Source of the DNA: an uncultured Bacteroidales bacterium
GTDB lineage: Bacteria > Bacteroidota > Bacteroidia > Bacteroidales > UBA932
Reading direction: 5' to 3'
NCBI GenBank assembly: GCA_946614205.1
Contig: CAMOGR010000205.1
Span: 1 to 15,236, forward strand
Length of the DNA: 15,236 nt
The translations under genes were made by a program, and so were the position numbers. The notes under the pieces were generated by a model. The model made no database searches. It worked only from the letters and a program-made list of their open reading frames with translations, and was not told the DNA's origin. Shown one piece after another: positions 945 to 15,236 of the stretch; the stretch's first letter is position 1, and each line of letters starts with the position of its first letter.

Positions 945-1613
945 ATGAACGTAAAGACTACCTTGCTTGCGCTACTGGTGCTGCTCGTCGGCGGGCAGGA
1001 CGTCCACGGTTCCGGGAATATCCCCGGCGCCTGGTACTCTGTCTGGCGGTCTTTCGGAGTCGACCCGTACCTTGCCGAGTCGGTGGTGTGGCCGGAGAGG
1101 CAGCGGCACGACTACCTGCGTGACGCCCTTGAAAACGCCGCCGACCGTAGCACGTACGTATTGTTCGCTGACGGCTTCGACTTCTCCATAGGCGTTTTCC
1201 AGATGAAGCCGTCGTTTGTGGAAAAACTTGAGAAAGCCTGGATGGACAGCGGTCTTGCCGAACGGTTCGACGTTCACTTCGACGTTTCGCCCACACCTGC
1301 GGCCCGCAGCGCCCGCCTCGCACGCATGCAGTCCGAGGAATGGCAGGCCGTCTACATCGCCGTCTTCCTGCACCAGCTGTCCTTCTCCTACGACACCGAA
1401 GGGCTCACGCAAGAAAATCTCGTGAAGCTGGCGGCCACCGCATACAACCGCGGCTGCGAATGGACCCCAAGGGGTTCCGGAGACGTGGAGGGACTGCTCG
1501 CCCTTTCAGGCATCGAGAGTTTCCCCCGCATAATCATCCCCCGGCCCGGTCAGCGCCGCTACAGCTACGCCGCCCTTGCCTGGGAACGCTACAAATCCTT
1601 GTTGTCGCTATAG
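945..1613 (+). CDS. Secreted protein with a putative divergent lysozyme/transglycosylase-like fold
   Basis: A 222-residue protein starting with a signal peptide (MNVKTTLLALLVLLVGG, cleavage near residue 22; no lipobox). The core has three patches in the order expected for soluble lytic transglycosylases: an acidic patch LAESVVWPE (43-51, candidate catalytic Glu45 or Glu51), SIGVFQMKPSF (81-91, resembling the S-x-G-L-x-Q-x-x-P motif) and LAATAYNRG (162-170, resembling AAYNxG). These suggest peptidoglycan cleavage or binding in the periplasm, but the fit is only partial and activity is uncertain. The reading frame extends upstream to 429, but that part is antisense to the lipoprotein gene. The ATG at 945 is the start that yields a proper signal peptide. 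The next gene begins one base after this stop, which implies translational coupling. Alternative: a Bacteroidales protein of unknown function with the same fold but another ligand. Confidence 0.8.
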   Translation: MNVKTTLLALLVLLVGGQDVHGSGNIPGAWYSVWRSFGVDPYLAESVVWPERQRHDYLRDALENAADRSTYVLFADGFDFSIGVFQMKPSFVEKLEKAWMDSGLAERFDVHFDVSPTPAARSARLARMQSEEWQAVYIAVFLHQLSFSYDTEGLTQENLVKLAATAYNRGCEWTPRGSGDVEGLLALSGIESFPRIIIPRPGQRRYSYAALAWERYKSLLSL

Positions 1614-1614
1614 G

Positions 1615-3195
1615 GTGCTCGCCAGACGTCATATCGCCTTCCTGCTGATAGTCACCGGCTTGCTCTCTGTCGCCTGCCGCTCCGACGCCGTCGTGGAGGT
1701 CCCGCAGCGGCTGTACCGGGTGAGAATGCTCGCTTCGAGCGTTGAAGTCGGATCGGACGGCACGGCGGTAATTCCCTTCGAGGCCGACTGCCCCGCTGAC
1801 GCGCTGCCGCAAGTGCGACTGCTGCAGCGCGACGGCATGGAGCCGGAGGCGTTTTCCCTGCGGGGAATATCCGAAGCAGGACCGGGACGCTACCTGGCAG
1901 GCATCTGCGATTCCGGCACTCTCGAAGCGTATTCGCTGGAAGTCTGCCTGAGTTTCGAAGACGCCGGCGGTCAGCAGCTCAGCGCCACGCCCGAATACGT
2001 TTGCGTCAACTGCGGTCCCCCGTCGTTCGGCCCGGGTGTGGACACCGGCCTCCCGGTGATTTATATCGATACCGCCGACGGCCAGGCGCCCCGGCACAAG
2101 GAGCTTGAAGCCCAGGCCCGTATAAGCGTCAGGGGCGCCGGAGGATTTGCTTCCATGGCCCCGGCGAGCTGCGTAATCGGGGGCCGCGGCAACATCTCAT
2201 GGAACTGGCCCAAGAAGCCCTGGGAACTGCGATTCCGCGACGACGTCCCCCTTTTGGGCATGGACGCGCATCACAGCTGGGTGTTGCTTGCGAATTTCGG
2301 CGACCGCACGCTGATGCGCAATCTGGTGTCGATGAAAGTCTCGTCGCTCACCTCGCTCGACTGGACTCCCAGCTGCGTGCCGGTTGAGCTTGTGCTTAAC
2401 GGCTCGCATATGGGCAGTTACCTGCTCATTGAAAAGATTGACGTATGCGCCGGCAGGGTCAACTTGTCGCCGGATGGCGGATGCCTGCTGGAGCTGGACT
2501 TCCACCTCGACAACGCGCTGCAGTGGGTCGACCCGCACGGATTCAGCCGGCTGGGTTTCGGTATTCCCTTTGCCGTGAGGTATCCGTCTGCGGGTGACGC
2601 TTCCGAGGAGCGGCTCTCCGAAATACGGAACTACGTTTACGATGCGGCAGCGGCGCTTTATTCCGATTCTTTCACCGACCCTGTGAAGGGCTATGCAGGG
2701 TGGCTCGACGTAGATTCCTTTGTCGACTACTGGATTGTATATGAGGCGCTTGGCAACTACGAACTGGGGAACCCGGGAAGCGTTTACATGCATAGGGACG
2801 CCGGAGGCCGGCTACGCGCCGGTCCCTGCTGGGACTTCGACTGGGTGCTCAGCCGCACCGGCACCGACATTCAGGCGCTTGCCGGCACCCTCAACACGGC
2901 TGCCATCTGGTATGAGCGCCTGTTCAGGGACCCTGCTTTCGCAGAAAAGGTACGTGTACGTTTCTCACAGCTCCGGCCCTCGCTTGAAGGGGTGGCGGAG
3001 TATATCGATTCGTGCGCTTCCCTGCTCGAGCGTTCGGCCGAGCTTAATTTCATGCTCTGGGACCCCGCCCAGGACCGCTGGAGCAACAACGGGCTTCTCA
3101 TAAACGGCGACGAGAACCTTGAGTTCGGGGACGCCGTCGCCCGCCTGCGGGAGGTCTGGCTGGACAGGCTCGAGCTGATTGGCAAGCTGTTGTAA
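1615..3195 (+). CDS. CotH-kinase-like lipoprotein
   Basis: A 526-residue protein when started at the GTG at 1615, which gives MLARRHIAFLLIVTGLLSVAC with a lipobox at Cys21. A TTG start at 1576 would put a non-signal stretch in front and overlap the previous gene, so GTG is preferred. Residues 22-165 form a beta-rich N-terminal region. The CotH domain follows: RGNISWNWPKKPWELRF (191-207), LLGMDAHHSWVLLANFGDRT (213-232), MRNL (234-237), GSYLLIEKIDV (267-277) and GPCWDFDWVLS (403-413), whose Asp residues are candidates for metal/ATP chemistry. Bacillus CotH phosphorylates spore-coat proteins; this organism group does not sporulate, so the target here is unknown and probably extracytoplasmic. A single base separates it from the upstream stop. 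Nothing indicates truncation. Family call is firm; kinase activity is inferred. Confidence 0.9.
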   Translation: MLARRHIAFLLIVTGLLSVACRSDAVVEVPQRLYRVRMLASSVEVGSDGTAVIPFEADCPADALPQVRLLQRDGMEPEAFSLRGISEAGPGRYLAGICDSGTLEAYSLEVCLSFEDAGGQQLSATPEYVCVNCGPPSFGPGVDTGLPVIYIDTADGQAPRHKELEAQARISVRGAGGFASMAPASCVIGGRGNISWNWPKKPWELRFRDDVPLLGMDAHHSWVLLANFGDRTLMRNLVSMKVSSLTSLDWTPSCVPVELVLNGSHMGSYLLIEKIDVCAGRVNLSPDGGCLLELDFHLDNALQWVDPHGFSRLGFGIPFAVRYPSAGDASEERLSEIRNYVYDAAAALYSDSFTDPVKGYAGWLDVDSFVDYWIVYEALGNYELGNPGSVYMHRDAGGRLRAGPCWDFDWVLSRTGTDIQALAGTLNTAAIWYERLFRDPAFAEKVRVRFSQLRPSLEGVAEYIDSCASLLERSAELNFMLWDPAQDRWSNNGLLINGDENLEFGDAVARLREVWLDRLELIGKLL

Positions 3196-3632: not shown

Positions 3633-5828
3633 TTAATCTGCAGTAAAGCTTATTGTAGGATTACCAAGCATTCGATTGGTTCCTCCACTGTTATTGGCCA
3701 AATCTTTGGCGCCACCGCATCTTTGCTTGGAAACAACTACTGCCCGTATCTTAAGGGTTTTAAACGCATCCATCGCTTCCGCATGGAAGGAGGCATTAAC
3801 ATCTTCAACTACGTTATTTCCGTCCAGAGAATATGTGCAGTTTACCATAGTACTACTGTCTGTATTGTCTGGAACTGAAAGATTTGCTTCAATCGAAACA
3901 GGACTATCCCAATTATCATCAAAAGTATATTCCAATCTGAAATGCTTAGGCCCAGCCGTAGAAGCTGCCATTTTGTATGAAATCGTATATGTACCTGCGT
4001 TATTCTTCACATTTGGTATATCAAACTCCCAATAGGAACCCAGACCCATGCAGTAATGAAGAATAAAATACTCGCCTTCGGGACACCATGTTTCAGTTTC
4101 ATTTGGCAAACGGTAAGTCGGATCGTTGCCACCACTACCATTAGCCGTGGAAGTAACTATAATCTTTCCCTGATGGTCATCTGAATATACGTATGAACCG
4201 CTAAAGCTCTTATCTACGAGACTATAGTCTGAAGCTGCCACCCATGAAGATGAAGGGGCGGGGAAATTCCAAATAACAGGAAATTCAGCAGGACTAGGCG
4301 CAGCTTCGGTGACTTTGATATTATCGATGAACCACCTCATTTTAGAGCCGTCATTGGGACTTAAATTGACCAAATTAGGACGGATGATAATTCTGGATGC
4401 ACTGGTCAGGCCTGACAGGACCAGACTTTTAGTTTCCCAGTATAGAGTTTTTGTTTGAGTGAAAGAATCACTGACGCTTTTCCCGGAATCGGAACATGTT
4501 CCGCCACCGGTCACTTCGATGACGAATTCCTGATTCGCATCCTGTACACTCCAATCAAATGATAGAGTGACATTCTTGCGAGCTCCAAAATCAATGGCAG
4601 GTAACTGTATTCCTGAATGGTATCCCGTTCTACCGAATTTCAAGTAGTTCTCCTGAGCGTACATCACCTTTTCTTCTTTATTTATATCAGAATAGTAAAG
4701 CCCTGTGAATGCATCGCCAACCGAATCGGTGTTGCTGCTGACGTTCCAGATATTTGGCTGCTGATAAGGTTTTGCCGCAGATGTTGACGTTGAACGTGTC
4801 GCTACAGGGTCAAGGTTATACGAGTTCAAGGTGTAAGCATTACCATAAACTACATCTCCCTTGAGGACATCCCAATACTTGTAAATCCAGTCAAAATTAT
4901 CCTGGAAGTAAACAAAAGTACTTTGGCAAGTGCTGTCAAGGGTAATCTTAATCTTGGTTACCTTACCGCTTGAGAGTTCCATTCCCGAAGCTGCCGTGAT
5001 AGTCTTGGTGATTTCGTGGTTGGTCGTAAGGACAGTGACATTAAGCCCGCTTGTAAGGGTCACGGGATTGACCACCATATAAATGGACCTGCCAAATTCC
5101 AAAGGGTCTTCAGTGAAGTCAGCTGTAACATGATTCTTTCCGAGTCCGTCTGCAACTGTAAACTTCTGGTTTTCAAAATCGTAACGTACGACTCCGGACA
5201 GAATATCGCTCCCGGCAGATTCGAGCTTGAGGGACTTGATACTCTCGCCTGTAAGGCCAAGGTTGTCAGCAAGATCAATCCTCAGTACTGCACCGATACG
5301 GCGGAACTGCATGTCGTCAACAGTCACTGAGCTTCCCGAAAGCGCAACCGTCTTAGGTACACCGGCGAGCAGGTCGGCTTTAGGGTCGAATGTGTTGATA
5401 TCCGGGAACTGAATATAGGGAATCTCGAGATCGACTTTCTTACCTTCCTGTGTAGCATAAAAAGCCCTTGCGGGATAGAAAGCATAAACGGTATAGTCTC
5501 CGGGGTCGGCTGTCACGGTACCAGTGAATGAAGCAGTTTCACCTGCGACACTATTGGTCAGTTCTGCATTCACGGCGGTAGCACCGGCAGAAAAACCATT
5601 GACAAAAACCCCAAGCTTATCACCTTCTCCCCACGCGGGCACATAATTTGAACCGTCTATCGAAACGGAAGTCTTAGTGCCCGGTGCGGGAGCATTTATG
5701 GTGAGTTCAATGGTGCCGGGTGCAGTCTGTTCCTGCCCGGACACGGGTGTCTCTTCAAGCTCTTTCTTACAAGAATTCAAGCAAGCAGCGCCGATGAGAG
5801 CCGCGGTAAAAAGAAAAAACTTTTTCAT
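3633..5828 (-). CDS. Fimbrillin-like multidomain surface lipoprotein (third of three)
   Basis: A 731-residue lipoprotein: signal MKKFFLFTAALIGAACLNSC with lipobox Cys20. Residues 38-298 match the fimbrillin (Mfa-like) domain pattern: TKTSV (51-55), AWGEGDKLGVFV (65-76) and YTVYAFYP (112-119). Residues 303-508 look like a beta-sandwich, opening with YFQDNFDW (307-314) and closing with RWFIDNIKVTEA (498-509). Residues 514-731 form a module starting EFPVIWNF (515-522), with YWEFDIPNV (599-607), AGTYTISY (611-618), GPKHFRLEY (626-634) and a final TNRMLGNPTISFTAD. This module recurs at the end of the BACON protein encoded at 10730-13108. The start at 5828 is chosen because the upstream extension adds a non-signal stretch overlapping the small ORF at 5839-5997. 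It is the last operon gene, 8 bases before a terminator. The C-terminal half is clearly poorer in GC than the rest of the operon. The likely role is surface binding or adhesion; the ligand is unknown. Confidence 0.87.
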   Translation of the reverse strand: MKKFFLFTAALIGAACLNSCKKELEETPVSGQEQTAPGTIELTINAPAPGTKTSVSIDGSNYVPAWGEGDKLGVFVNGFSAGATAVNAELTNSVAGETASFTGTVTADPGDYTVYAFYPARAFYATQEGKKVDLEIPYIQFPDINTFDPKADLLAGVPKTVALSGSSVTVDDMQFRRIGAVLRIDLADNLGLTGESIKSLKLESAGSDILSGVVRYDFENQKFTVADGLGKNHVTADFTEDPLEFGRSIYMVVNPVTLTSGLNVTVLTTNHEITKTITAASGMELSSGKVTKIKITLDSTCQSTFVYFQDNFDWIYKYWDVLKGDVVYGNAYTLNSYNLDPVATRSTSTSAAKPYQQPNIWNVSSNTDSVGDAFTGLYYSDINKEEKVMYAQENYLKFGRTGYHSGIQLPAIDFGARKNVTLSFDWSVQDANQEFVIEVTGGGTCSDSGKSVSDSFTQTKTLYWETKSLVLSGLTSASRIIIRPNLVNLSPNDGSKMRWFIDNIKVTEAAPSPAEFPVIWNFPAPSSSWVAASDYSLVDKSFSGSYVYSDDHQGKIIVTSTANGSGGNDPTYRLPNETETWCPEGEYFILHYCMGLGSYWEFDIPNVKNNAGTYTISYKMAASTAGPKHFRLEYTFDDNWDSPVSIEANLSVPDNTDSSTMVNCTYSLDGNNVVEDVNASFHAEAMDAFKTLKIRAVVVSKQRCGGAKDLANNSGGTNRMLGNPTISFTAD

Positions 5829-5838
5829 GGCAGACTCA

Positions 5839-5997
5839 TTAAAAACTATAATCATACTCATCGGCGCTGGCGTTGCCTCTCAGCACACCGGCCTTACCAG
5901 ACTCTCCGGCGGAACCGGGAGCTATTTGCATGTACCCCCCCCCAGCAGCAATCGTAATGCACTGGAGGACAGGGACTTCGTAATCTAATTTCTTCAT
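5839..5997 (-). CDS. Small 52-residue protein upstream of the third fimbrillin-like lipoprotein
   Basis: An uninterrupted 53-codon frame from the ATG at 5997 to the TAA at 5839-5841. It begins MKKLDYEVPVLQCITIAAGG, then has GYMQIAPGSAGESGKAG, LRGN and an acidic/aromatic tail ending DEYDYSF. It lies 5 bases after the preceding lipoprotein stop and 10 bases before the next lipoprotein start, so it fills the gap between them. It has no cleavable signal peptide; residues 12-20 are only mildly hydrophobic. Support for reality comes from two similar small ORFs in the same position in front of the other two fimbrillin-like genes. It contains a run of nine G in codons 19-21. Function unknown. It could be a small protein partner, a peptide precursor, or a translational coupler. 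Confidence 0.68.
   Translation of the reverse strand: MKKLDYEVPVLQCITIAAGGGYMQIAPGSAGESGKAGVLRGNASADEYDYSF
5935..5943 (-). repeat. G9 homopolymer tract inside a small ORF
   Basis: Nine C on the plus strand, nine G on the coding (minus) strand, forming three consecutive GGG glycine codons of the small ORF at 5839-5997. As given the frame is open. A gain or loss of one base would shift it. Such tracts are prone to slippage in cells and also to sequencing error. Confidence 0.9.
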
Positions 5998-6002
5998 ATC
6001 TT

Positions 6003-8234
6003 TTATTGTTTTACCGCAGTTACAACAACCGAAGCGTCGGTGACGCGGATGTTGCCGGTGTCTGTATTGTTAAATGACAAATTGAACGTATCGCCTGTGA
6101 AGCTGTCGGCGAAAGTGATGACGTAACTTATGACATTGACGGTTTTATTCCATTCAGAAGTGTAGGGTTCATTGGTGGATGAGCTGAGCGTTACGCCTTC
6201 TGTGTCTGAAGTTACCGTACGTTTGGCATTGGGAACGGAATTGCTGTGATAAGTCAGCTTGACAGTCTTGGCTCCGCTGCAGGGGATTCCTGCAATCTTC
6301 CACCAACCGCCGCTCTTTGCTACAAGCAAGTTCAAAGGATTGGCTCCGTCTGGAACAGGAGATGTACCATTAGGTATATACACAAGGCCGTCAGCATAGA
6401 GCTTGGTGGAATTGCTGTTCTGCGTATAAGTTACGGTAGCTCCATCATAAACGACAGTCGAAGCATCGCCGCTTGCCATATACTGGGCTGGTGTCTGGTT
6501 GGCAGCCCCTCCGGCAAAACTCTCGGACCAAAGCACATCACCGACCTTGAGAGATGTGGTGACGGGGGCTTTCTGGTTGATGTTGAGCGTATAGGATGCG
6601 GGGGTCACAGATGCCGTGGTGGACACCGTCACGACGTAGCTCTTGTCAGCGGAGCCTGCATTGGCGGGAACGCTGACAGTCAGAACCGCTGCGCCTGTGC
6701 CGGAAGTCTTGTCGAGGCTTGCTCCTCCGCTTACGGATGCGGTCCATGCGACGTTACCGAACACATAGACAGGCACCGTTGACTCAGCTGCGGAAACGAC
6801 GACGTCATCGGTGTTCCCGTCGGCGTTCGTCACTTTGAACCTCGAAGTAGCGTCTGCCGCAACATCCTTGCGGTAAATCTTGACGGGCAGCATTGAAGTG
6901 CTTTCATTATATGCGGAGAACAGGCTGCTGCCGGAGTTATACCTTATGAGGTTGCGCTTGAGGCCGTCAACCTTAATGATAGCGCGCTCGGAATCGGGAT
7001 TCTCCTTGTCGGCATCGGTGATGTCGCCGAAGCTGATGCTCCAGCTGGCAAGAACGTCAACGGAAGCCTGCGTCCTGAGGTTGTTTCCGCCATTGTCCAG
7101 ACCGCTTGCCGCATAAAGATATCCGGGGTGTGCATCGCCGGTCGCGCGCAGAGCCCACTGACCGGGAACCAGACCGTCTTCGAGCTTGATAATCTCTACG
7201 TTGCTCGCAGGATCGATGATATACTCGCCGCTCTTGGTAATACCGGCCTGAGAGCGGTTGTTGGAGTTCTGGCCGGTGCTCATGGCAACGTCGGAATCTG
7301 CTGCGGCGATGATGATTTCATCTCCCCAGTTGAGTTCAGACTCAGAAGTGACCAACTTATACTTGACAGCTTCCTGAGCGGAAATTCCCGCCATGCTCAC
7401 GCCGAAGCGTACCACGTCGCCGGGGGCAAGGGCAGCGCTTGCAGGCAGGGTGATGGTCTTGCTGAGCGAACCCTGGTCGGTACCTACAGTAAGCTTGAGG
7501 GACTTGCCAGACAGGTCTGCGGGAACAATGCCGCACCATACCTCGTCGGCGGTGTCCGTGCTTACGGATATCATGTTGAACTGGGACGTGCCTTCTCCGT
7601 TAAACTTGCCTTCCTCGGGCAGGAAATGGTTGCGGCCCGCTATGTAGCATCCCTCCGGAGCTTCAATGGTAACGCTCTGCACGCTTGCGCCGGCAGGCAG
7701 CGAGAGGTCCTTGAAGAAGATATGGAGGTATGCAGTCGCATGAGCGAACGAGACGGGCAGCACCGACGGAAGGGTGGTAAGTTCTTCTGTGATGCTATAA
7801 AGAATCTGGGCCGAAGGGTCGGGACCGGCGGGCGTTGACGCTTGCGCCGTGGGTATCTCGACCAGGACGGTCTTGTTGGTCTTGTTGACGCTCTTGTAAG
7901 CCGCAAACGGATTTACGAGGATGAAACGGTATGATTCTGCCGCGTCGAATTTAGCGGTGAAGCTGGCGGACAGGCCGTCTGCTGCGGGAGTTACGTCGAG
8001 TGCTTTTGCAGTAGCATAGCCTATGGATGCAGCGACCTGCTTGTCATCCGCATTCCAGAGGACGGGATAGCTCTTGTCGGCATTCTGCTCACCGAAAACG
8101 GTACGGGTTTGAGGCGCCTCGGCGGTAAAGGTAACGCTGACCTGCGCAGGAGCGGCGGGTTCCAGCTCCTTGGGTGTGCACGAGGAAAGCACGGCAGCTG
8201 CGAGTGTGGCAGCGAGAACAATAAACTTTTTCAT
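6003..8234 (-). CDS. Fimbrillin-like lipoprotein with trefoil-like and BACON modules (second of three)
   Basis: A 743-residue lipoprotein: signal MKKFIVLAATLAAAVLSSC, lipobox Cys19. Domain order: a fimbrillin-like region (about 31-285) with QTRTVFG (42-48) and YPVLWNADDKQ (56-66); a module from KYKLVTSESELNWGDEIIIA (291-310) to RYNSGSSLFSAYN and LPVKIYRK (431-456), a pattern I recall from Bacteroidales secreted proteins and read as beta-trefoil-like; a BACON domain (about 465-555) with VFGNVAWTASVSGGASLD (491-508); and a C-terminal beta-sandwich (565-743) starting GDVLWSESF. Each is typical of surface adhesion or glycan-binding proteins. The longer reading frame to 8285 overlaps the small ORF at 8248-8385, and ATG 8234 gives the signal peptide. 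It is a tandem paralogue of the gene at 8397-10574. The ligand is unknown. Confidence 0.87.
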   Translation of the reverse strand: MKKFIVLAATLAAAVLSSCTPKELEPAAPAQVSVTFTAEAPQTRTVFGEQNADKSYPVLWNADDKQVAASIGYATAKALDVTPAADGLSASFTAKFDAAESYRFILVNPFAAYKSVNKTNKTVLVEIPTAQASTPAGPDPSAQILYSITEELTTLPSVLPVSFAHATAYLHIFFKDLSLPAGASVQSVTIEAPEGCYIAGRNHFLPEEGKFNGEGTSQFNMISVSTDTADEVWCGIVPADLSGKSLKLTVGTDQGSLSKTITLPASAALAPGDVVRFGVSMAGISAQEAVKYKLVTSESELNWGDEIIIAAADSDVAMSTGQNSNNRSQAGITKSGEYIIDPASNVEIIKLEDGLVPGQWALRATGDAHPGYLYAASGLDNGGNNLRTQASVDVLASWSISFGDITDADKENPDSERAIIKVDGLKRNLIRYNSGSSLFSAYNESTSMLPVKIYRKDVAADATSRFKVTNADGNTDDVVVSAAESTVPVYVFGNVAWTASVSGGASLDKTSGTGAAVLTVSVPANAGSADKSYVVTVSTTASVTPASYTLNINQKAPVTTSLKVGDVLWSESFAGGAANQTPAQYMASGDASTVVYDGATVTYTQNSNSTKLYADGLVYIPNGTSPVPDGANPLNLLVAKSGGWWKIAGIPCSGAKTVKLTYHSNSVPNAKRTVTSDTEGVTLSSSTNEPYTSEWNKTVNVISYVITFADSFTGDTFNLSFNNTDTGNIRVTDASVVVTAVKQ

Positions 8235-8247
8235 ATGCTTTCCTGGT

Positions 8248-8385
8248 TTAAAAGTCACCCCAATCCATTTCAGGGTTGGTATCATTGATGTCTCCGTTAC
8301 CGCGGAGAGACTCGCTCAGCAGGGCATTCCCAAGAGAGAGAATGCCCTCTGCAGCGCAGTCGGGGGTAATATATGTTTTTTTCAT
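8248..8385 (-). CDS. Small 45-residue protein upstream of the second fimbrillin-like lipoprotein
   Basis: A 46-codon frame, ATG at 8385 to TAA at 8248-8250. It starts MKKTYITPDCAAEG, continues ILSLGNALLSESLRGNGD and ends NPEMDWGDF. In-frame ATGs at 8391 and 8397 also exist; the latter overlaps the previous stop by one base (TAATG). The MKK start is chosen because it matches the small ORF at 5839-5997. It ends 13 bases before the lipoprotein ATG at 8234, the same spacing as in the cassette upstream. No signal peptide; acidic overall. The shared LRGN and Phe-terminated acidic tail link it to the ORF at 5839-5997. Function unknown. Confidence 0.7.
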   Translation of the reverse strand: MKKTYITPDCAAEGILSLGNALLSESLRGNGDINDTNPEMDWGDF

Positions 8386-8396
8386 TTCCATTGACA

Positions 8397-10574
8397 TTAC
8401 TTAAGCTCGGTAACGACGACCTGTATATTAGTGAAGCGTGTATTTGCAGTATGCTTGTTCGTAATCGTAAGGTCGAAGGTGGAAAGGCCGTCTTCGAACG
8501 TCACGGGGAACGAAAGGATATACGCAGTGTTATCGCCGCTGACCTCGCTTGTCTGAGTCTCGCTTCCGATAGTCACGCCTTCCGTAGTAGTCGAAGGGAT
8601 ATACTTCTCGGTCTGGCTGCGGTTGATGACATAGGAAAGCGTAGCCGACTTGACGCCCTTGCAAGGGATGCCGGATACGGTCATGTAACCCTTGGGGGTT
8701 ATAAGCAGTGTCTCGTCACGACCGGAAACGACTTTACAATTGGCATTGCCGTCCGTCTTGGTGTAAGCGCCGCTGCCGCTGTAAATCACGGGTGCACCGC
8801 CCAATACGACAGTGCCGCCGAATGCATATTTGTCGAGGGCGCCGTTAGTTGAACCGTCGGCTGCGCCGGCCCAGTTCTCGAAGTACAGGACGTCGCCAAC
8901 CTTGACATCGACGCTCGCAGGAACGGCATTCTGCGTAACCGTGAGGGTATAAGAGCTGGGAGAGACGGAAGCGCTTGTGCTCACGGTGACCTTATACTCC
9001 TTGGTCGAAGTGGTGGTGTTCTCGGGAACGCTGAGGGTAAGCGTAGCGGGGCCGTTGCCGGAAGTCACATCCAGGCTTGCACCGCCACTTACGGAAGCAG
9101 TCCATGATACATTGCCGAACACATACACCGGCAATTCCGCAGCAGAGGTGGCAATGGTCTTGCCGTCGGAAGGCATGGTTGCATTGAAGCGGGGAGACAT
9201 GTCGGGATCCACCCGGTGGCGGTAAATCTTCACAGGATAAGTCGACGTGACGTCGTTGTAGCCGGAGAAGATTTTACTGTCCATGTTGTAACGGATAAGT
9301 GAACGCTTCGAGGTAAGCGCATGGATGATGGCGCGCTCGGCGTCGGGATTCGCATTGTCAGCTTCGGTAAAGTCTCCGAAGGAAATGTTCCAGCTTGCCT
9401 GTTCGTCGATGATATCCCTGGTCCTCAGGTAATTGCCCGCATCGTTAATACCTCCGGCAGCATAAATATACCCGGCGGTTTTAGTTGCATACAGCGACCA
9501 AGTACCGGGGATGAGGCCGTCCTGGAGGGTGATTATCTCTACGTCGTCACTGGGGTCGAGGATTACGCCGCTGCCCTTGGAGACACCGGTTTCTGAACGG
9601 TTGTTGGTGTTCTGGAGTTTGGAAAGGGCTACATCGTAGTCTGCTGCGGCAATGATAATTTCGTCACCGTAGTGGAGCTCGTCAGCAGAAGTCACAAGAT
9701 CGTATACCACGGGGTCCTTCATACCAATACCCTCCATATTGATGCTTAACTTGCATATCTTGCCGGGGCTGAATACAAAGCTCTTAGGGATATTGAGATC
9801 TTTGTTGAGAGAGCCTTTGTCGGTCACGATGGAAACGGAGAGAACAGTGCCAGCCAAATCAACGGGGGCGATTGCGCACCACACGTCATCGAGGCTTCCG
9901 GTGCTGACGGTGACTGACTTCGCCATGCTGGTGCCCTCTACATAACTGCCGTCCAGTTTGAGGAAGAAACGGCCGGCAATGAATTTCTCGGAAGAAACGC
10001 TCACCGACTGAACGGTAGCTCCTCCAAGGTCGACGCCCTTGAAAGACATGTGAAGATAAACGGGAACGTGCTTGAGGGAGAGACTCACCTTGGAAGGAAG
10101 TTCCGCGCTGATATCGGAAACGCCGTACATTACCTGAGCCCTCTCGTCGGGGGTTCCGACACCACTCGTCTGGCCTGAGGGGACCTCGACCATGAAGCGG
10201 CTTTCGCTGGCATTTACGCTCTTGAAGGCGTCATAGGGATTGACGATTACGAACTGATAAATTCCGCTTGCGTCATCGCTGAGTTCACGGGTAAATGTTG
10301 CAGTCTTGTGATCTGCAGAAACGGTAAGGTCGGCGCTCAGGACGCTCTTGAGATTGAGCGCAAGGCCGATTTTGGAGTCGTTGTCACTCCAGAGGACGGG
10401 GTAGGTGGAACCGTCGGGGGTTCCGAAGACAGTCCTGGTCTCGGGGGACGAGGCCGTGAACTCGACAGTGCGTACGCCCTGAGAGACAGGTGCAGACACA
10501 TCTTCTTTTTTGGTGGTGCAGGAAGAGAGCACGAGGGCTGCAGTAAAGGCAGCGAAAAGAACTGTTTTTTTCAT
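8397..10574 (-). CDS. Fimbrillin-like lipoprotein with trefoil-like and BACON modules (first of three)
   Basis: A 725-residue lipoprotein: signal MKKTVLFAAFTAALVLSSC, lipobox Cys19. A GTG at 10586 would add MYAI before the signal and overlap the small ORF stop, so ATG 10574 is preferred. Domain order: fimbrillin-like (about 35-285) with ETRTVFG (45-51) and YPVLWSDND (58-66); trefoil-like module (289-452), from YDLVTSADELHYGDEIIIAA to RYNMDSKIFSGYN and YPVKIYR; BACON domain (465-549) with VFGNVSWTASVSGGASLD; C-terminal beta-sandwich (556-725) starting GDVLYFENW and closing NIQVVVTELK. Same architecture as the gene at 6003-8234. The two are closest in the trefoil-like and BACON parts and least alike in the last 160 residues, which suggests diversification of a binding end. 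Membrane-anchored surface protein in a SusCD operon; ligand unknown. Confidence 0.88.
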   Translation of the reverse strand: MKKTVLFAAFTAALVLSSCTTKKEDVSAPVSQGVRTVEFTASSPETRTVFGTPDGSTYPVLWSDNDSKIGLALNLKSVLSADLTVSADHKTATFTRELSDDASGIYQFVIVNPYDAFKSVNASESRFMVEVPSGQTSGVGTPDERAQVMYGVSDISAELPSKVSLSLKHVPVYLHMSFKGVDLGGATVQSVSVSSEKFIAGRFFLKLDGSYVEGTSMAKSVTVSTGSLDDVWCAIAPVDLAGTVLSVSIVTDKGSLNKDLNIPKSFVFSPGKICKLSINMEGIGMKDPVVYDLVTSADELHYGDEIIIAAADYDVALSKLQNTNNRSETGVSKGSGVILDPSDDVEIITLQDGLIPGTWSLYATKTAGYIYAAGGINDAGNYLRTRDIIDEQASWNISFGDFTEADNANPDAERAIIHALTSKRSLIRYNMDSKIFSGYNDVTSTYPVKIYRHRVDPDMSPRFNATMPSDGKTIATSAAELPVYVFGNVSWTASVSGGASLDVTSGNGPATLTLSVPENTTTSTKEYKVTVSTSASVSPSSYTLTVTQNAVPASVDVKVGDVLYFENWAGAADGSTNGALDKYAFGGTVVLGGAPVIYSGSGAYTKTDGNANCKVVSGRDETLLITPKGYMTVSGIPCKGVKSATLSYVINRSQTEKYIPSTTTEGVTIGSETQTSEVSGDNTAYILSFPVTFEDGLSTFDLTITNKHTANTRFTNIQVVVTELK

Positions 10575-10587
10575 AATCGCATACACT

Positions 10588-10710
10588 TTAGAAAATCAAC
10601 TCTTCCTCCTGGGCGTCGTCGAGGCCAAGGCCATCGAAGGACGTGAGTTCCAGATACTCGGAATATGCCTCAAGGGGCATGTACTCCGCATTGGGTTTGT
10701 TGTACTTCAT
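10588..10710 (-). CDS. Small 40-residue acidic protein upstream of the first fimbrillin-like lipoprotein
   Basis: A 41-codon frame, ATG at 10710 to TAA at 10588-10590. It begins MKYNKPNAEYMPLEAYSEY and ends with an acidic tail, DDAQEEELIF. An in-frame TAA at 10726-10728 makes ATG 10710 the first possible ATG. It starts 19 bases after the stop of the BACON gene and ends 13 bases before the lipoprotein ATG at 10574. It has no signal peptide and is strongly acidic and rich in Tyr and Glu. Sequence likeness to the other two small ORFs is limited to the MK..(x)P start and the acidic, Phe-ended tail; the shared position is the stronger argument. Function unknown. Confidence 0.62.
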   Translation of the reverse strand: MKYNKPNAEYMPLEAYSEYLELTSFDGLGLDDAQEEELIF

Positions 10711-10729
10711 AATAACTATAATAATTTAT

Positions 10730-13108
10730 TTAATCTGCTTTGAACGAGATGGTTACATGATCGCCCACGCGGTTGGTCGCACCGTGGTTGAGAGCCATGT
10801 CGGTACCGGAGACGCGGCTGGTGGAGACCACCCTTGCGCGCACCCTGACCGTAGTGGACTTAGCAATCGCGGGAAGCCGGACAGACTTGTTTATCGTATA
10901 GACCGTCGAAGCTTTTTCCAGGGCGTAGGTGTACTGGAATGTCTCTTCTCCGTTTTCGCCGCTGTACGAACCGTCAACGGGATCTACTGGAATCCAGTTG
11001 ACGCCGTCGCCGGAATACTCAAGCAGGAAGTACTTGGGTCCGTTGCCGGAAGACTCGGCACAGTACTCAATGGTATAGGTTCCCGCAGGATTGGTGACGT
11101 TGAACACCTCGAAGAGCCAGTAGTCGTCCTTGTAAACGCCGTAGTGCAGGAAGCAATGCTTGCCGTTCCAGCGCTCCTCGGTACGCTTCTGGTACGTGGT
11201 GTTGCTCGACGTCGCCGAGGTGGTGGAAGTACGTATCATGCTCAGCTTGCCGTGGTGGGTGTCGGAATACACGTACGAGCCGGAAACGTTGTTGAGCGAG
11301 AAGTCAACTCCGTTTACATTGCTCGGACCGGGCATGCTCCACATGATGGGGAATTCCGCAGGTGTGGTAACCTCCTGAGGCTCATCGCTGCCGGGCGTGA
11401 CGCTGCCCGGCTTCGCACCCTGGATAATGGCGATGGAGCTGCGGGTGATGCCGGCCTTGATGACGATGACGCCCTCGCGGATGGAGCCGGTGTCGTTGTC
11501 TTCGCAGTTCACCGTGAAGGAAATGTCCTCGCCTGCGGAGGATTCGGTCTGGTCGACCTTAATCCAGTCGGAGGAAGGAGTGAGGGTGAAGTCCTGGTCG
11601 GAAGTTACCGTGAACTTACGCGAACCGGCTTTCTCGCCGTCGAAGGCGAGGTAGGAAGGATTGACGGTGAGATTGGCCTTGGTGAGGGTCTCGGAACCGG
11701 CAGCAACTATCGAAATCTGAGGCTGATAGGCGTCGTCGGCAGTCTTGGTGTCAACCGCCAGGCGCCAGGTGCCTCCGTTGGGTGCGCCAAGGGCTCCTTT
11801 GCCGTTGGCCTGCCAGTTGGCGGCGCAGATGAAGCGGAACTCCACCTGGTCGGTGTTGGCAGTGTAATTGGCAAGGGACTCCACGAAGATGTTGGTGGAA
11901 CCGTCGGAATTCATGGCATGTGTGTATACGACAGGCTTGCCGTCGGGGCCGGGAACCTCGGGGTCGGTAAGTGGCTGACCTGCAATCTTCCAGGTATCGC
12001 CGTCGCGGAACTCGAGCCTCCAGTACTTGTGACCGGTGCCGGATACGCGCGTACCGAAGACGAGCTTGACAATGGTTCCTGCGGAAACGGGCGACGCAGC
12101 TACTATCTCCAGATAATCTCCGGGCCACACTCCGGCGGCGCGGGGACAATTGTCGGAGACGTCGATGACGACCTTGCCGGCGCTGTCGACGGCGCGGCCG
12201 CTCTCGTTGTGCCAGGTCATCATGCCGCTGCCGCTCACGGGAGGGATGGTGCCGCCCGTGGGCCATGTGGATGCGTAGGTATTGTCCGCCACGCGCACCG
12301 CCCACTTGACGGGGAAGCCCTCGAGGGTGGTTTCGTTGGCAGGATACTGGGTGATGGGGACCAGCTCCGTCTTGGCCTCGCCGTCGATGGTGTAACGGAC
12401 GGTGAGGTCGGCGCCGCGTACGCCCAGGTTGTTGGCGGCTACCTTGAAGACAAGGGTGTCGACCTGCTTGCCGCTCTCGTGCTTGGACTCGTCGGTTATC
12501 CATTCCAGGTCGGGCGTGCCATAGGAGGCGGCGGGCTCGAGTGAGTAATCCCAGTTCACGTTGGAGGTTACGGCGAGGCGTATCCTCTGGCCGGAAGCCT
12601 GTACGTTGAACTTGGCGGCGTTCATCTCGAGGAAGAGCGGGCTGGGCTCCTGCGTGACACTGAGCATGCCCTCAAGGGGCTCGAAGTTGCCGGTGCCCTT
12701 GTCGACCAGTATGTTGAACAAGGCTTCGCGACGGTTCACCGGGTCGATGTTGCGTTCGGTCTTGAAGAAGAACAGGCCCTCCTTCTCACCACTGTCGGGG
12801 AAGGGATGAATCCAGCTCTCGGGCTCTCCGGTGGCGGGTACCACCTTCCAGCGCATGTTGGAGTTCACATAGAAGCGGGCTGCCTTGGACACATGGTTTG
12901 CGTTGTTGGCGGCGGCAGACCAGGCGTTCGGACCTATGACGAAAGAATACTGGGCCGACATCTCGTCCAGGGTGGCAACGGGGACCTCGCTGTCGTCGCG
13001 CACCACGATGCTGAACGTAGGGTCGCCTTCAACGACGAACCCTTCTTTTTCCTTCTGGCAGCCTACGGCGGCCAGAAGAAGGAACAGAGGTATCAGATAT
13101 CTTTTCAT
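10730..13108 (-). CDS. BACON-domain surface lipoprotein with duplicated beta-sandwich module
   Basis: A 792-residue lipoprotein: signal MKRYLIPLFLLLAAVGC, lipobox Cys17. Three BACON-like domains are visible: about 50-155 (ending MLSVTQEPS), 157-256 (FNVQASGQRIRLAVTSNVNW, ending VPITQYP) and 478-566 (TVTSDQDFTLTPSSDWI, ending IAIIQGAKP). Between and after them lie two copies of another module, opening FPVKWAV (265-271) and FPIMWSM (586-592). Both have an AGT...V/I strand and a HKYWRLEFRDGDTW or PKYFLLEYSGDGVNW strand. The C-terminal copy ends TNRVGDHVTISFKAD, as in the lipoprotein at 3633-5828. The start codon is 6 bases after the SusD stop, the position where Sus-type operons carry a surface glycan-binding lipoprotein. 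The probable role is binding glycan or mucin-like ligand beside the SusCD importer. No catalytic motif seen. Confidence 0.87.
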   Translation of the reverse strand: MKRYLIPLFLLLAAVGCQKEKEGFVVEGDPTFSIVVRDDSEVPVATLDEMSAQYSFVIGPNAWSAAANNANHVSKAARFYVNSNMRWKVVPATGEPESWIHPFPDSGEKEGLFFFKTERNIDPVNRREALFNILVDKGTGNFEPLEGMLSVTQEPSPLFLEMNAAKFNVQASGQRIRLAVTSNVNWDYSLEPAASYGTPDLEWITDESKHESGKQVDTLVFKVAANNLGVRGADLTVRYTIDGEAKTELVPITQYPANETTLEGFPVKWAVRVADNTYASTWPTGGTIPPVSGSGMMTWHNESGRAVDSAGKVVIDVSDNCPRAAGVWPGDYLEIVAASPVSAGTIVKLVFGTRVSGTGHKYWRLEFRDGDTWKIAGQPLTDPEVPGPDGKPVVYTHAMNSDGSTNIFVESLANYTANTDQVEFRFICAANWQANGKGALGAPNGGTWRLAVDTKTADDAYQPQISIVAAGSETLTKANLTVNPSYLAFDGEKAGSRKFTVTSDQDFTLTPSSDWIKVDQTESSAGEDISFTVNCEDNDTGSIREGVIVIKAGITRSSIAIIQGAKPGSVTPGSDEPQEVTTPAEFPIMWSMPGPSNVNGVDFSLNNVSGSYVYSDTHHGKLSMIRTSTTSATSSNTTYQKRTEERWNGKHCFLHYGVYKDDYWLFEVFNVTNPAGTYTIEYCAESSGNGPKYFLLEYSGDGVNWIPVDPVDGSYSGENGEETFQYTYALEKASTVYTINKSVRLPAIAKSTTVRVRARVVSTSRVSGTDMALNHGATNRVGDHVTISFKAD

Positions 13109-13114
13109 AAATGA

Positions 13115-14713
13115 TTACAGCTGAGGTGAATAAGGACTGCGATGAGTACCGTGGAGCTTGACGTAAGACCAGTCGAGGGGGATGTGCATGTTGTTGGCGG
13201 CTCCAGCGCCTCCCATGCGCTCGAGAGCTTCCGTGACATGTGCGCTGTTGGACGCGACGGTGTAGTTGGGATATCCGTAGCGGGTGGGCACTTCGTAATC
13301 GTTGGAAGAAGTGCCGCTCGCAATCTGGAAGTCGGGATATTCGGTGCGGCGCCACTCATTGAAGACCTCGTAGCCGCAGAAGTACAGGGAGATGAACTTC
13401 TGACAGGCAATGAGTTCCTCGGCGCTGCCGTAAAGGCTGCCGTCCTGCGAGACCGCCTTGTCGTACGAGCCCAGGGGGCCTTCCAGAAGGGCGGTTATGT
13501 CGGCGGAACGCACGGTGACGGGCTTGGCCGCATACTGGCCGAATTCGGCCCACTTGGCTATGCTGGCGCGGACTGCCTCCTCGTAGAGGTCTTTCGCAGT
13601 CTTGCCCGCTACGTTGAGCTTGCCCTTCTGCACGCCCTCGGCGAGGATGAATAGAACCTCGGAATAATCCATGAGGAATGCAGGCATGCTGGAACGGGCG
13701 AGGACCGCAAAGTTGGGAAGGGCGGAGCCGGTGTCGTAGGCCTTGAAGTCTCCGGTGGGCACACCGCCGCGGGAGCCCTTCCATGCGCCGGAGCGCTGGG
13801 TTGCGAAAATGGGAAGGCGGGGGTCTTCGAACACGGCGTTGCCTTTGTCGTTGAACTGCACCATCATGTCAATCATGGTCTGGGTGATGCGGTGTGCGGT
13901 AAAGTTGGAATTCGTCATGTTCTGCTGGCCCCAGTAGTTGCGGTAAGGGTCAACATCCTGGAAGGGAACGGCCGCGTTGTCGGTGTTGTCGGCGAATACG
14001 GGATACCCCGTCGGGTTGTCCACAATCTGCTGAATGGCAGCCCAATAGCTGTCGCTGATGCCCGACATGCGGCAGAGGATGCGCAGCTTGAGGGAGTTGG
14101 CGAACTTTATCCACTTGGTGTAATTGTCGCCGTACATCCTGTCCAGGCCGGGCTTGGTAATCTCCGGCTTGCGGGCGAGGATTACGGCGGCGCTGTCGAG
14201 GTCGGCTACGAACTCGGCGGCAAGCTCTTCCTGACTGTCGAACACCGGGCTGGTGTTCTCGGTCTGCATGTAAGCCTCTTTATAGGGGATGTCGCCGAAC
14301 AGAGCGGAAAGGTTGCTGAGGCAATAGACCTTGAGAATAAGGCCGAGAGCCTCCATGTACTTGTCTTCCCTCTTGACGGCCTGGGCCACGAGGTGATGGG
14401 CGTCGAAGCCGAAGCGCGCGTAATTGTCCCACTGGCTCTGCCAGTTGCCGTCGGTAACCTGATACTGGTGTATCTGGGTGGTCTGGCCGCTGGTGAACGC
14501 CGTCACCTGGGCCAGTTCGTTGGCGAAGAACCATGCCTGATACTGGTTGTTGACGCCTATTCCGTAGAACAGCGGCTCGAACAGCGAACCAGGGGCGGCA
14601 TCGCCGAAGTTGATCTTGTTGGGATTCGTATTGATTTCTACGAACCTGTCGGTGCAGGAAGAGGCTGCAACGCAGAGGGCCAGGGCCACGAATGTCTTGA
14701 TTATCTTATTCAT
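13115..14713 (-). CDS. SusD-like outer-membrane lipoprotein (SusD-like_2 type)
   Basis: A 532-residue lipoprotein, full length for the family: signal MNKIIKTFVALALCVAASSC with lipobox Cys20. The mature start FVEINTNPNK (24-33) is the usual opening of the SusD-like_2 (PF12771) group. The helical core shows LFGDIPYKEAYMQ, the P-x-F-D-S-Q-E-E segment, MYGDNYTKWIKFANSLKLRI and, near the end, YEVFNEWRRTEYPDF, all conserved in the family. SusD proteins sit as a lid over SusC and hold oligosaccharides at the outer face of the outer membrane. The ATG lies 6 bases after the SusC stop, the classic arrangement. Neighbours suggest glycan uptake, but peptide or other ligands are possible for this subgroup. 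Family assignment is secure; substrate unknown. Confidence 0.95.
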   Translation of the reverse strand: MNKIIKTFVALALCVAASSCTDRFVEINTNPNKINFGDAAPGSLFEPLFYGIGVNNQYQAWFFANELAQVTAFTSGQTTQIHQYQVTDGNWQSQWDNYARFGFDAHHLVAQAVKREDKYMEALGLILKVYCLSNLSALFGDIPYKEAYMQTENTSPVFDSQEELAAEFVADLDSAAVILARKPEITKPGLDRMYGDNYTKWIKFANSLKLRILCRMSGISDSYWAAIQQIVDNPTGYPVFADNTDNAAVPFQDVDPYRNYWGQQNMTNSNFTAHRITQTMIDMMVQFNDKGNAVFEDPRLPIFATQRSGAWKGSRGGVPTGDFKAYDTGSALPNFAVLARSSMPAFLMDYSEVLFILAEGVQKGKLNVAGKTAKDLYEEAVRASIAKWAEFGQYAAKPVTVRSADITALLEGPLGSYDKAVSQDGSLYGSAEELIACQKFISLYFCGYEVFNEWRRTEYPDFQIASGTSSNDYEVPTRYGYPNYTVASNSAHVTEALERMGGAGAANNMHIPLDWSYVKLHGTHRSPYSPQL

Positions 14714-14719
14714 AGCACT

Positions 14720-15236
14720 CTAGAATTTGACTTTGATGCTGCCACCGTAGGAACGGCACATAGGGAAACTTCCCGACTCTATGCCTCGGGTCGCGTTGGC
14801 GTCGTTGGCGCCTGTGACCTCAGGGTCGTAGAACGGATAGTTGGAGATGCAGAAGAGGTTGTTGGCATACAGGGAAATGGTAACGCCCTGCAGGAACTTG
14901 GTCTTGGTGACAAGCGACTTGGGGAAGTCGTAGGAAAGCGTCACCTCCTTGAGCTTGAGGAAGGAGTTGTCGTAGATGTACTCCACGAAGTTGTAACGGT
15001 TGGCCTTGAAATTGGAATAATAGGTGTAGATGTCCGACACCAGCGTGGTGTTGGTCTTATATATTCCGTTGCCGTCCTCGTCGTAGCCCACGAAATTGAC
15101 TCCCTCGGGAATCAGGCCGTCCTGACGGCCGTCCAGGGTGTTCTTAAGCTTGCCCTGATAACCGAGGCTGGCCGCGGTGACGGAGTAGGTCTTGCCGCCG
15201 AGCTGCGCCGAGAAGATGGCGCCGATGCTCAGGCCC
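14720..15236 (-). CDS. SusC-like TonB-dependent outer-membrane transporter, C-terminal part
   Basis: Only the last 171 residues lie in the window; the frame stays open to the window edge, so the start is beyond it. A GTG at 15091 is internal, not a start. Features typical of the SusC beta-barrel end are visible: ISLYANNLFCISNYPFYDPE (the NLF...YDPE motif), ATRGIESGSFPMCRSYGGS, LKLKEVTLSYDFPK and the last strand IKVKF ending in Phe. It forms the gated barrel that takes up substrate captured by the SusD partner, powered by TonB. It is the first gene of the operon seen here. The two Cys residues, in LFCI and PMCR, are a little unusual near the barrel end and could pair. Family sure. Confidence 0.94.
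   Translation of the reverse strand, partial: GLSIGAIFSAQLGGKTYSVTAASLGYQGKLKNTLDGRQDGLIPEGVNFVGYDEDGNGIYKTNTTLVSDIYTYYSNFKANRYNFVEYIYDNSFLKLKEVTLSYDFPKSLVTKTKFLQGVTISLYANNLFCISNYPFYDPEVTGANDANATRGIESGSFPMCRSYGGSIKVKF

Follow-up and report, generated by a model that had tools for sequence, protein, structure and literature searches.

Short YxxP-leader peptides encoded upstream of lipoprotein genes in Bacteroidales: candidate precursors of an RRE-dependent peptide system

Introduction

Why should each of three large lipoprotein genes in a compact SusCD operon be preceded by a short open reading frame (ORF) of its own? The question is raised by a stretch of 15,236 nucleotides from an uncultured Bacteroidales bacterium (contig CAMOGR010000205.1, hereafter the window), in which a sequence-only reading had drawn attention to three such pairs and suggested a linked function: a partner, a peptide precursor or coupled translation. 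Here, the small ORFs were followed from the window into related genomes. They are rather likely to encode leader-bearing precursors of a system depending on a recognition element (RRE) for ribosomally synthesized and post-translationally modified peptides (RiPPs), i.e., a RiPP-like system in which each precursor is paired with its own lipoprotein gene. This reading is carried by a coding signature, membership in a peptide family with a fixed leader register, recurrent pairing with lipoprotein genes, and co-occurrence and linkage with a gene cassette around the RRE protein PqqD, all of which can be read from the DNA itself.

Organization of the three small ORFs

The three frames lie on the minus strand and, as the sequence-only reading had it, end 13, 13, and 10 bases upstream of the lipoprotein ATGs at 10574, 8234, and 5828. 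The operon is organized as follows:

14720..15235, minus strand: SusC/RagA outer-membrane protein, C-terminal part, cut by the window end (positions 836-981 of the TIGR04056 profile, the match of this fragment being below the whole-protein cut-off)
13115..14713, minus strand: SusD-like lipoprotein (SusD-like_2)
10730..13108, minus strand: BACON-domain lipoprotein, with a 6-base gap upstream and without a small ORF
10588..10710, minus strand: small ORF 1, 40 aa, YxxP leader, candidate precursor-type peptide
8397..10574, minus strand: lipoprotein 1, 725 aa, 3' of small ORF 1
8248..8385, minus strand: small ORF 2, 45 aa (49 aa from the start at 8397), YxxP leader
6003..8234, minus strand: lipoprotein 2, 743 aa, paralogue of lipoprotein 1, 3' of small ORF 2
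5839..5997, minus strand: small ORF 3, 52 aa, YxxP leader, with an in-frame run of nine G
3633..5828, minus strand: lipoprotein 3, 731 aa, 3' of small ORF 3

The SusC-SusD and SusD-BACON gaps do measure 6 bases each, as had been noted; the gaps before the three lipoproteins, put at 120-170 bases in the same reading, were found to span 155, 162, and 174 bases for small ORFs 1, 2, and 3. In 5000 dinucleotide shuffles of each gap, a comparable frame, defined as an ATG frame of at least 40 codons ending no more than 20 bases from the gap end, arose 68, 142, and 110 times, respectively. If the three gaps are independent, the joint chance of all three frames is about 1e-5. The frame of small ORF 2 opens four codons earlier, at 8397, where its ATG overlaps the TAA of lipoprotein 1 as TAATG. 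The nine consecutive G in small ORF 3 (5839-5997) may mark a slippage site or a sequencing error.

None of the three small ORFs matched a Pfam or NCBIfam model, and a protein search with small ORF 2 as query recovered only itself. A word-limited search of 5.8 billion proteins yielded 26 relatives at E <= 0.001, whose sole name is “hypothetical protein.”

Conservation and coding signature

Scanning an alignment of 18 lipoproteins against species genomes gave 18 loci (L001-L018), titled Bacteroidales or related metagenome-assembled genomes, many of them from ruminants. All 12 close loci (L001-L012) carry a small ORF of 40-51 codons located 11-14 bases upstream of the homologous lipoprotein gene; that of L008 was read separately, the script having missed the frame. 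A small ORF before the lipoprotein is also present in L013, L015, and L016. At L014, L017, and L018, which are partial matches to other protein types, no upstream small ORF was found.

In each of 10 small-ORF pairs compared between relatives, the proportion of nonsynonymous differences (pN) was lower than that of synonymous differences (pS). For small ORF 1 and its 40-aa orthologue in L001, pN was 0.127 and pS 0.740, the changes numbering 7, 4, and 20 at first, second, and third codon positions. For small ORF 2, the values were 0.354 and 0.741 against the L001 counterpart and 0.300 and 0.807 against that of L002. The third small ORF of L002 has a TTG start and overlaps the lipoprotein start. 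Interrupted frames and substitutions of the non-coding kind, which the sequence-only reading had named as grounds for abandoning its idea, did not appear in the homologous loci with one exception: the second small ORF of L003 (about 8313-8442) looks interrupted, with a frame of 22 codons and a family-like tail in another frame, the break probably lying at a run of seven C. The three small ORFs of the window are very probably coding genes and members of a large family.

Leader and tail of the peptides

The seed profile of this family (A4) retained 22 of 29 candidate frames. Seven were dropped by eye (L005 2279, L006 3739, L007 5797, L009 3095, L013 5648, L016 2274, and reversed-window 4546), and at four places a choice between two frames preceding one gene was made by eye. 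Y and P are invariant in all 22 of these first peptides, which were gathered by position and partly chosen by eye. The family is characterized by a leader in fixed register, YxxP...E..FLxS, followed by an acidic tail with an aromatic end. In a set of 85 peptides aligned without gaps, YxxP or FxxP is present throughout (Y in 83, F in 2), and the register is fixed from Y to +19; a profile had served to find most of these peptides, which makes the leader statistic partly circular. A hydrophobic residue occupies +5, +7, +10, and +12 in 84-92% of them. Sixty peptides have E at +13, 46 have F at +16, 52 have L at +17, and 47 have S at +19. Counted from +17, the tail has a mean length of 22 residues, a net charge of about -5 and 1% Lys/Arg, and 67 of the 85 peptides have an aromatic residue among their last four. 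The peptides thus show the small size, conserved leader and variable tail looked for in a RiPP-like precursor. No signal sequence is apparent on the peptides by eye and the consensus shows no GG-type leader.

Passages on lasso peptides describe comparable leaders. One group of lasso precursors carries YxxPxL at leader positions -17 to -12 (as given in part of PMC10368454), and the rumen lasso leaders displayed in part of PMC7533575 look similar to the YxxP leader described here.

Membership of the window's own peptides was assessed with a hold-out profile of 77 peptides, from which these three and five orthologues from L001 and L002 had been removed. Small ORFs 3, 2, and 1 scored 21.0, 10.8, and 8.3 bits and outscored all others of the 137 small ORFs (25-100 aa) of the window (E 4.7e-5 for small ORF 3); the remaining window frames were all absent from the 22 top scorers of the mixed set, which reached down to 5.5 bits. 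A profile of 11 close relatives gave 17.1 bits to small ORF 2 and 13.3 bits to small ORF 1 and missed small ORF 3, which obtained 0.5 bits, below an unrelated window frame at 6.8 bits. The three peptides of the window are divergent members of the family, with YxxP in all of them and the usual Glu at +13 in none.

Pairing with lipoprotein genes

With the 22-peptide profile, matches were obtained in all 15 source genomes, 3 to 16 in each at E <= 1, the seed peptides included. Fifty-two further places were examined, and in 49 the peptide is encoded directly upstream of a lipoprotein gene (46 by script; three, L045, L049, and L088, accepted by eye). At L065, L075, and L080 no such partner was recognised, L080 running to the contig end. 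The set left out at least three places below E 0.01 (G004:C6:9557, G009:C18:27178, and G005:C70:6501). As a base rate, the script called 76 of 276 ORFs of another sample lipoproteins.

A census of 3206 small ORFs in 400 kb of genome G012 gave a similar picture. For each of the top 11 matches (at least 18.1 bits; two had been used in training), a lipoprotein start lies between -26 and +28 bases; below them stood one match at 16.0 bits without a gene after it, and the remainder did not exceed 5.7 bits. The 11 partners were called by eye from their first 40 residues, and 8 of 10 were also called by the script. The density of 11 in 400 kb does not scale to the whole genome because contigs C22 and C25 were picked for holding matches. 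In an order-level draw, 12 of 14 different places showed a lipoprotein-like start within 60 bases, both places in G030 being the ones without. Among 17 regions linked to PqqD (see below), a lipoprotein-like gene follows 21 of 22 peptides, 20 of them within 118 bases and that of L160 after 391. The conserved and recurrent pairing lends good support to the linked function first suggested for these genes, and it is not limited to SusCD operons or fimbrillin-like proteins.

Two explanations for this gene order would dispense with a processed product. In the first, the small ORF is a cis-acting leader whose sole effect is to couple or tune lipoprotein translation, in the manner of an upstream frame or attenuator, and the peptide has no job. 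Coupled translation, as proposed in the sequence-only reading, is indeed compatible with the spacing of 10-13 bases in the window and 10-18 bases among the 22 first peptides, with the TAATG overlap before small ORF 2, and with peptides that lack an apparent signal sequence. It leaves unexplained the conservation of the amino acids, with substitutions concentrated at third positions, and the fixed leader register across diverged peptides. Moreover, the spacing is loose in wider sets (-38 to +40 in the 52-place set and up to 118 in the linked regions), no Rfam family reached threshold in a scan of the window, and a cis-acting role does not predict the association and linkage with the RRE/peptidase/ABC cassette described below. 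We regard a purely cis-acting leader as unlikely.

In the second explanation, the peptide stays inside the cell as a chaperone or targeting aid for the lipoprotein before export, and the association with an RRE is indirect. One peptide per lipoprotein, encoded directly upstream, an acidic tail and the missing signal peptide would all suit such a cytoplasmic helper, which leaves the lasso-like leader and the linkage to peptidase and exporter genes unexplained. Four pairs of G012 form a group in which mean identity is 93% for the tails and 61% for the leaders. This difference suits a conserved product and is silent on where that product would act, be it inside or outside. A helper appears just about as improbable as a cis-acting leader. 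As an observation on the same group, the four near-identical tails precede four similar lipoproteins at scattered places (L134-L151, G012 C22 and C25).

Co-occurrence and linkage with a PqqD cassette

Because the leader resembles lasso leaders, a search was made for PqqD (PF05402), the stand-alone RRE of lasso systems, and a match over the cut-off was present in all 15 source genomes. The association was then counted in 149 genomes from the same family as G001, without correction for common descent, using a peptide profile (A5) that had been built prior to any PqqD search. This profile matched in 50 genomes, PqqD in 69 and the cassette peptidase in 60. Peptide and PqqD occur together in 47 genomes, the peptide only in 3, PqqD only in 22 and neither in 77 (p 3.7e-18, kinship ignored); for peptide and cassette peptidase, the corresponding numbers are 47, 3, 13, and 86 (p 4.4e-23, kinship ignored). 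A second profile (A6) of 31 peptides, which includes peptides from linked regions, matched in 44 genomes, 41 of them with PqqD, leaving 3 with A6 only, 28 with PqqD only and 77 with neither. A decoy profile of reversed peptides (26 of the 31) matched in none of the 149 genomes.

Among the matches listed, 14 of the 47 genomes have a peptide no more than 5 kb from PqqD, compared to 0.85 expected at random, and 17 have one within 10 kb, compared to 1.67 expected. Twenty regions were read, 17 chosen as linked and 3 for PqqD alone. A kinase gene was found in 19, an ABC gene in 17, a peptidase gene in 14, and a nucleotidyltransferase gene in 12; within the 17 linked regions, the kinase is present in 16, the ABC gene in 14, and the peptidase in 12. 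Candidate precursor genes are thus linked to RRE, peptidase and exporter genes, as in a RiPP-like system. Several small ORF-lipoprotein pairs sit inside the run of cassette genes, for example:

L165: PqqD, nucleotidyltransferase, ABC, peptide, lipoprotein, kinase, peptidase
L163: peptide, lipoprotein, PqqD, nucleotidyltransferase, ABC, kinase, peptidase
L159: PqqD, nucleotidyltransferase, ABC, kinase, peptidase, peptide, lipoprotein

Because L154/L155, L156/L158, and L157/L168 resemble one another, the linked cases cannot all be treated as independent.

The cassette families are a putative HPr-related kinase (weak match), a putative S24/S26 peptidase (weak match, over the cut-off in L165 only), a nucleotidyltransferase (NTP_transf_5) and an ABC transporter. 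The peptidase retains Ser (GxSMxP) and His in 7 of 7 aligned rows, and the kinase-like protein retains SGTGKST and DD in 5 of 5. In G001, the genes for PqqD, kinase, peptidase, and ABC protein stand in a row, as do those for PqqD, kinase, and ABC protein in G002. Around 18 PqqD regions of the source genomes (L096-L113), read with simple ORF calling only, an ABC exporter is nearby in 11, a nucleotidyltransferase in 8, a peptidase in 5, and a kinase-like gene in 7 (8 including the weak match of L105). A second PqqD of G009 and G010 (L107 and L109) is accompanied by a nucleotidyltransferase and, judged by eye, adjoins genes resembling those for polysaccharide export; because of these contexts, PqqD is not tied to one role in these two genomes.

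Are the products then true lasso peptides, their tails threaded by the standard lasso pathway? The YxxP leader, a stand-alone PqqD, an HPr-like kinase, NTP_transf_5 and an ABC exporter are all reported for lasso clusters in parts of PMC10368454, PMC7533575, and PMC8498205, and a PqqD-type RRE is present in 47 of the 50 peptide-bearing genomes. Among NCBIfam models, the PqqD of L101 comes closest to lasso PqqD chaperones, with scores far below the cut-off. However, the lasso protease B2 (PF13471) was over the cut-off in 0 of 15 source genomes and 1 of the 149 family genomes, where three other matches all fell below it. The core does not start with a conserved Gly, as the frequency of G does not exceed 27% anywhere between +15 and +23. 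No lasso cyclase was recognised beside the 20 regions read, where most neighbours are unidentified and PF00733 was not searched for. The only B2 over the cut-off directly follows a PqqD (both at G299:C1:11326-11987) that is different from the one near the peptide gene of G299. The two are probably part of an ordinary lasso cluster, the peptide family being present in this genome as well. With B2 nearly always absent and the core-start Gly not conserved, lasso peptide identity was set aside as very improbable.

Several observations weigh against RRE-dependent precursors as well. Kinase and peptidase were assigned from weak matches, mostly below curated cut-offs, together with motifs. In the Alistipes-type L103 and L113 and in L104, no kinase, peptidase or ABC gene occurs within about 4.5 kb of PqqD, the peptide of L162 is linked to a PqqD without adjoining cassette genes and is followed by a protein without lipoprotein signal, and the window itself shows no cassette. 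Among the matches listed, 33 of the 47 genomes have no peptide within 5 kb of PqqD, and 3 of the 50 peptide-bearing genomes are without both PqqD and peptidase. The co-occurrence counts take no account of shared ancestry. At order level, in 198 genomes, PqqD was found in 127, the peptides in 9 and both in 8, which is not discriminating; 8 of 9 says little because PqqD is so common. To this may be added the partly circular leader statistic and the divergence of the window's peptides, with E at +13 in 0 of 3 and S at +19 only in small ORF 2. The fold predicted for small ORF 2 alone is helical at low confidence (predicted local distance difference test, pLDDT, 66.3) and uninformative.

Proposed maturation and role

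The reading of the small ORFs as precursors, already among the suggestions of the sequence-only reading, draws strong if indirect support from the lasso-like YxxP leader and from the co-occurrence and linkage with PqqD, peptidase and ABC genes. From this we infer the following route. Each small ORF would probably be translationally coupled to the lipoprotein gene that follows. All peptides may be served by one cassette, whose genes mostly lie at other places in the genome. Its PqqD-type RRE would bind the YxxP...E..FL leader, and the signal-peptidase-like S24/S26 enzyme would cut near FLxS and remove the leader. Lasso spacing would put the end of the leader at about +16; judged by the signal-peptidase rule, under which L or A at -3 and S or G at -1 would fit near FLxS, the cut would rather fall after +19. 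Decoration of the acidic tail may fall to the HPr-kinase-like protein and the nucleotidyltransferase, the ABC protein would export the tail, and the released peptide of roughly 20 residues could meet the lipoprotein outside the inner membrane. Joint action of tail and lipoprotein is indirectly supported by the one-to-one gene order and by the tail identity of the four G012 pairs, and a putative partner of the lipoprotein is our preferred role for the peptide product. In its most general form, a single cassette of RRE, kinase, peptidase, nucleotidyltransferase and ABC protein might act in trans on many scattered precursors, each of which would be a dedicated ligand, cofactor or subunit of the next lipoprotein; this extension is offered tentatively, as we lean slightly toward doubting it.

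If the proposal is true, a class of unnamed Bacteroidales small proteins would gain a function, and stand-alone PqqD/RRE cassettes that otherwise look orphaned would gain substrates. Many surface lipoproteins of gut bacteria would then be expected to work with a processed peptide, and a peptide-maturation route supplying cell-surface adhesins and glycan-binding proteins would represent a novel means of furnishing the bacterial surface. The hypothesis is directly testable in cultured relatives.

Lipoproteins and neighboring genes of the window

The label “fimbrillin-like,” applied to all three lipoproteins in the sequence-only reading, holds by predicted fold for residues 30-285 of lipoprotein 1 and, by identity, for lipoprotein 2, and is weak for lipoprotein 3. 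The AlphaFold2 model of lipoprotein 1 (pLDDT 83.7) has a predicted fimbrillin-like domain (30-285), a beta-trefoil (290-457) and a weak BACON domain (501-549). For this protein, 214 homologues were found, and the cysteine at residue 19 is invariant in an alignment of 18 rows. It therefore combines a lipoprotein signal with a predicted fold of the Mfa/FimB type at 30-285. By E-value, its top Foldseek match was a GH115 enzyme, which was rejected with a template modeling (TM) score of at most 0.14; adhesion proteins came next, with target TM scores of 0.41-0.57. Lipoproteins 1 and 2 share 45-47% identity. The N-terminus of lipoprotein 3 has a weak Mfa1-family match (6.3e-6, below the cut-off), and its C-terminal part aligns with the BACON protein of the window.

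Past the operon end, on the opposite strand, lies a gene for a CotH kinase-family protein (1576-3195, plus strand; PF08757, 1.1e-32). Two further genes lie on the minus strand: that at 41-439 encodes a DUF1232 protein (5.8e-11), and that at 492-893 a small protein of lipoprotein-like appearance whose match to DUF2846 is below threshold. No lipoprotein relative was found in viral contigs (78 pattern matches, none related) or in plasmids; thus, nothing points to a mobile element.

Comparison with known systems

In the open-licence literature, subscription papers and preprints lying outside the scope of the search, no description was found of small ORF-lipoprotein pairs or of the cassette together with them. 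Fimbrillin-like lipoproteins of the Mfa/FimB type can be counted among the closest known systems. Bacteroidales RiPP clusters with a GG leader and a peptidase-containing ABC transporter (PCAT), insofar as part of PMC10352776 describes them, are similar in combining a short precursor, a leader with a variable core, and an exporter. In contrast to these clusters, the peptide consensus shows no GG-type leader, the Pfam matches of three scanned ABC proteins include no C39 peptidase, and in most genomes the precursors are located away from the cassette. The split B1/B2 lasso systems (paeninodin, pseudomycoidin, bsf), again as far as the portions of the cited sources extend, share more: a YxxP leader, a stand-alone PqqD/RRE, an HPr-related kinase, a nucleotidyltransferase and an ABC exporter. 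They differ in that 148 of the 149 genomes here have no B2 protease over the cut-off, a putative S24/S26 signal-peptidase-like enzyme taking its place, and in that many precursors are scattered over the genome, nearly all of them upstream of a lipoprotein gene. Leader and RRE resemble those of lasso systems, while the B2 protease is nearly always absent and the core start shows no conserved Gly; what emerges looks like an RRE-dependent peptide system that is related to lasso systems and stands outside their membership.

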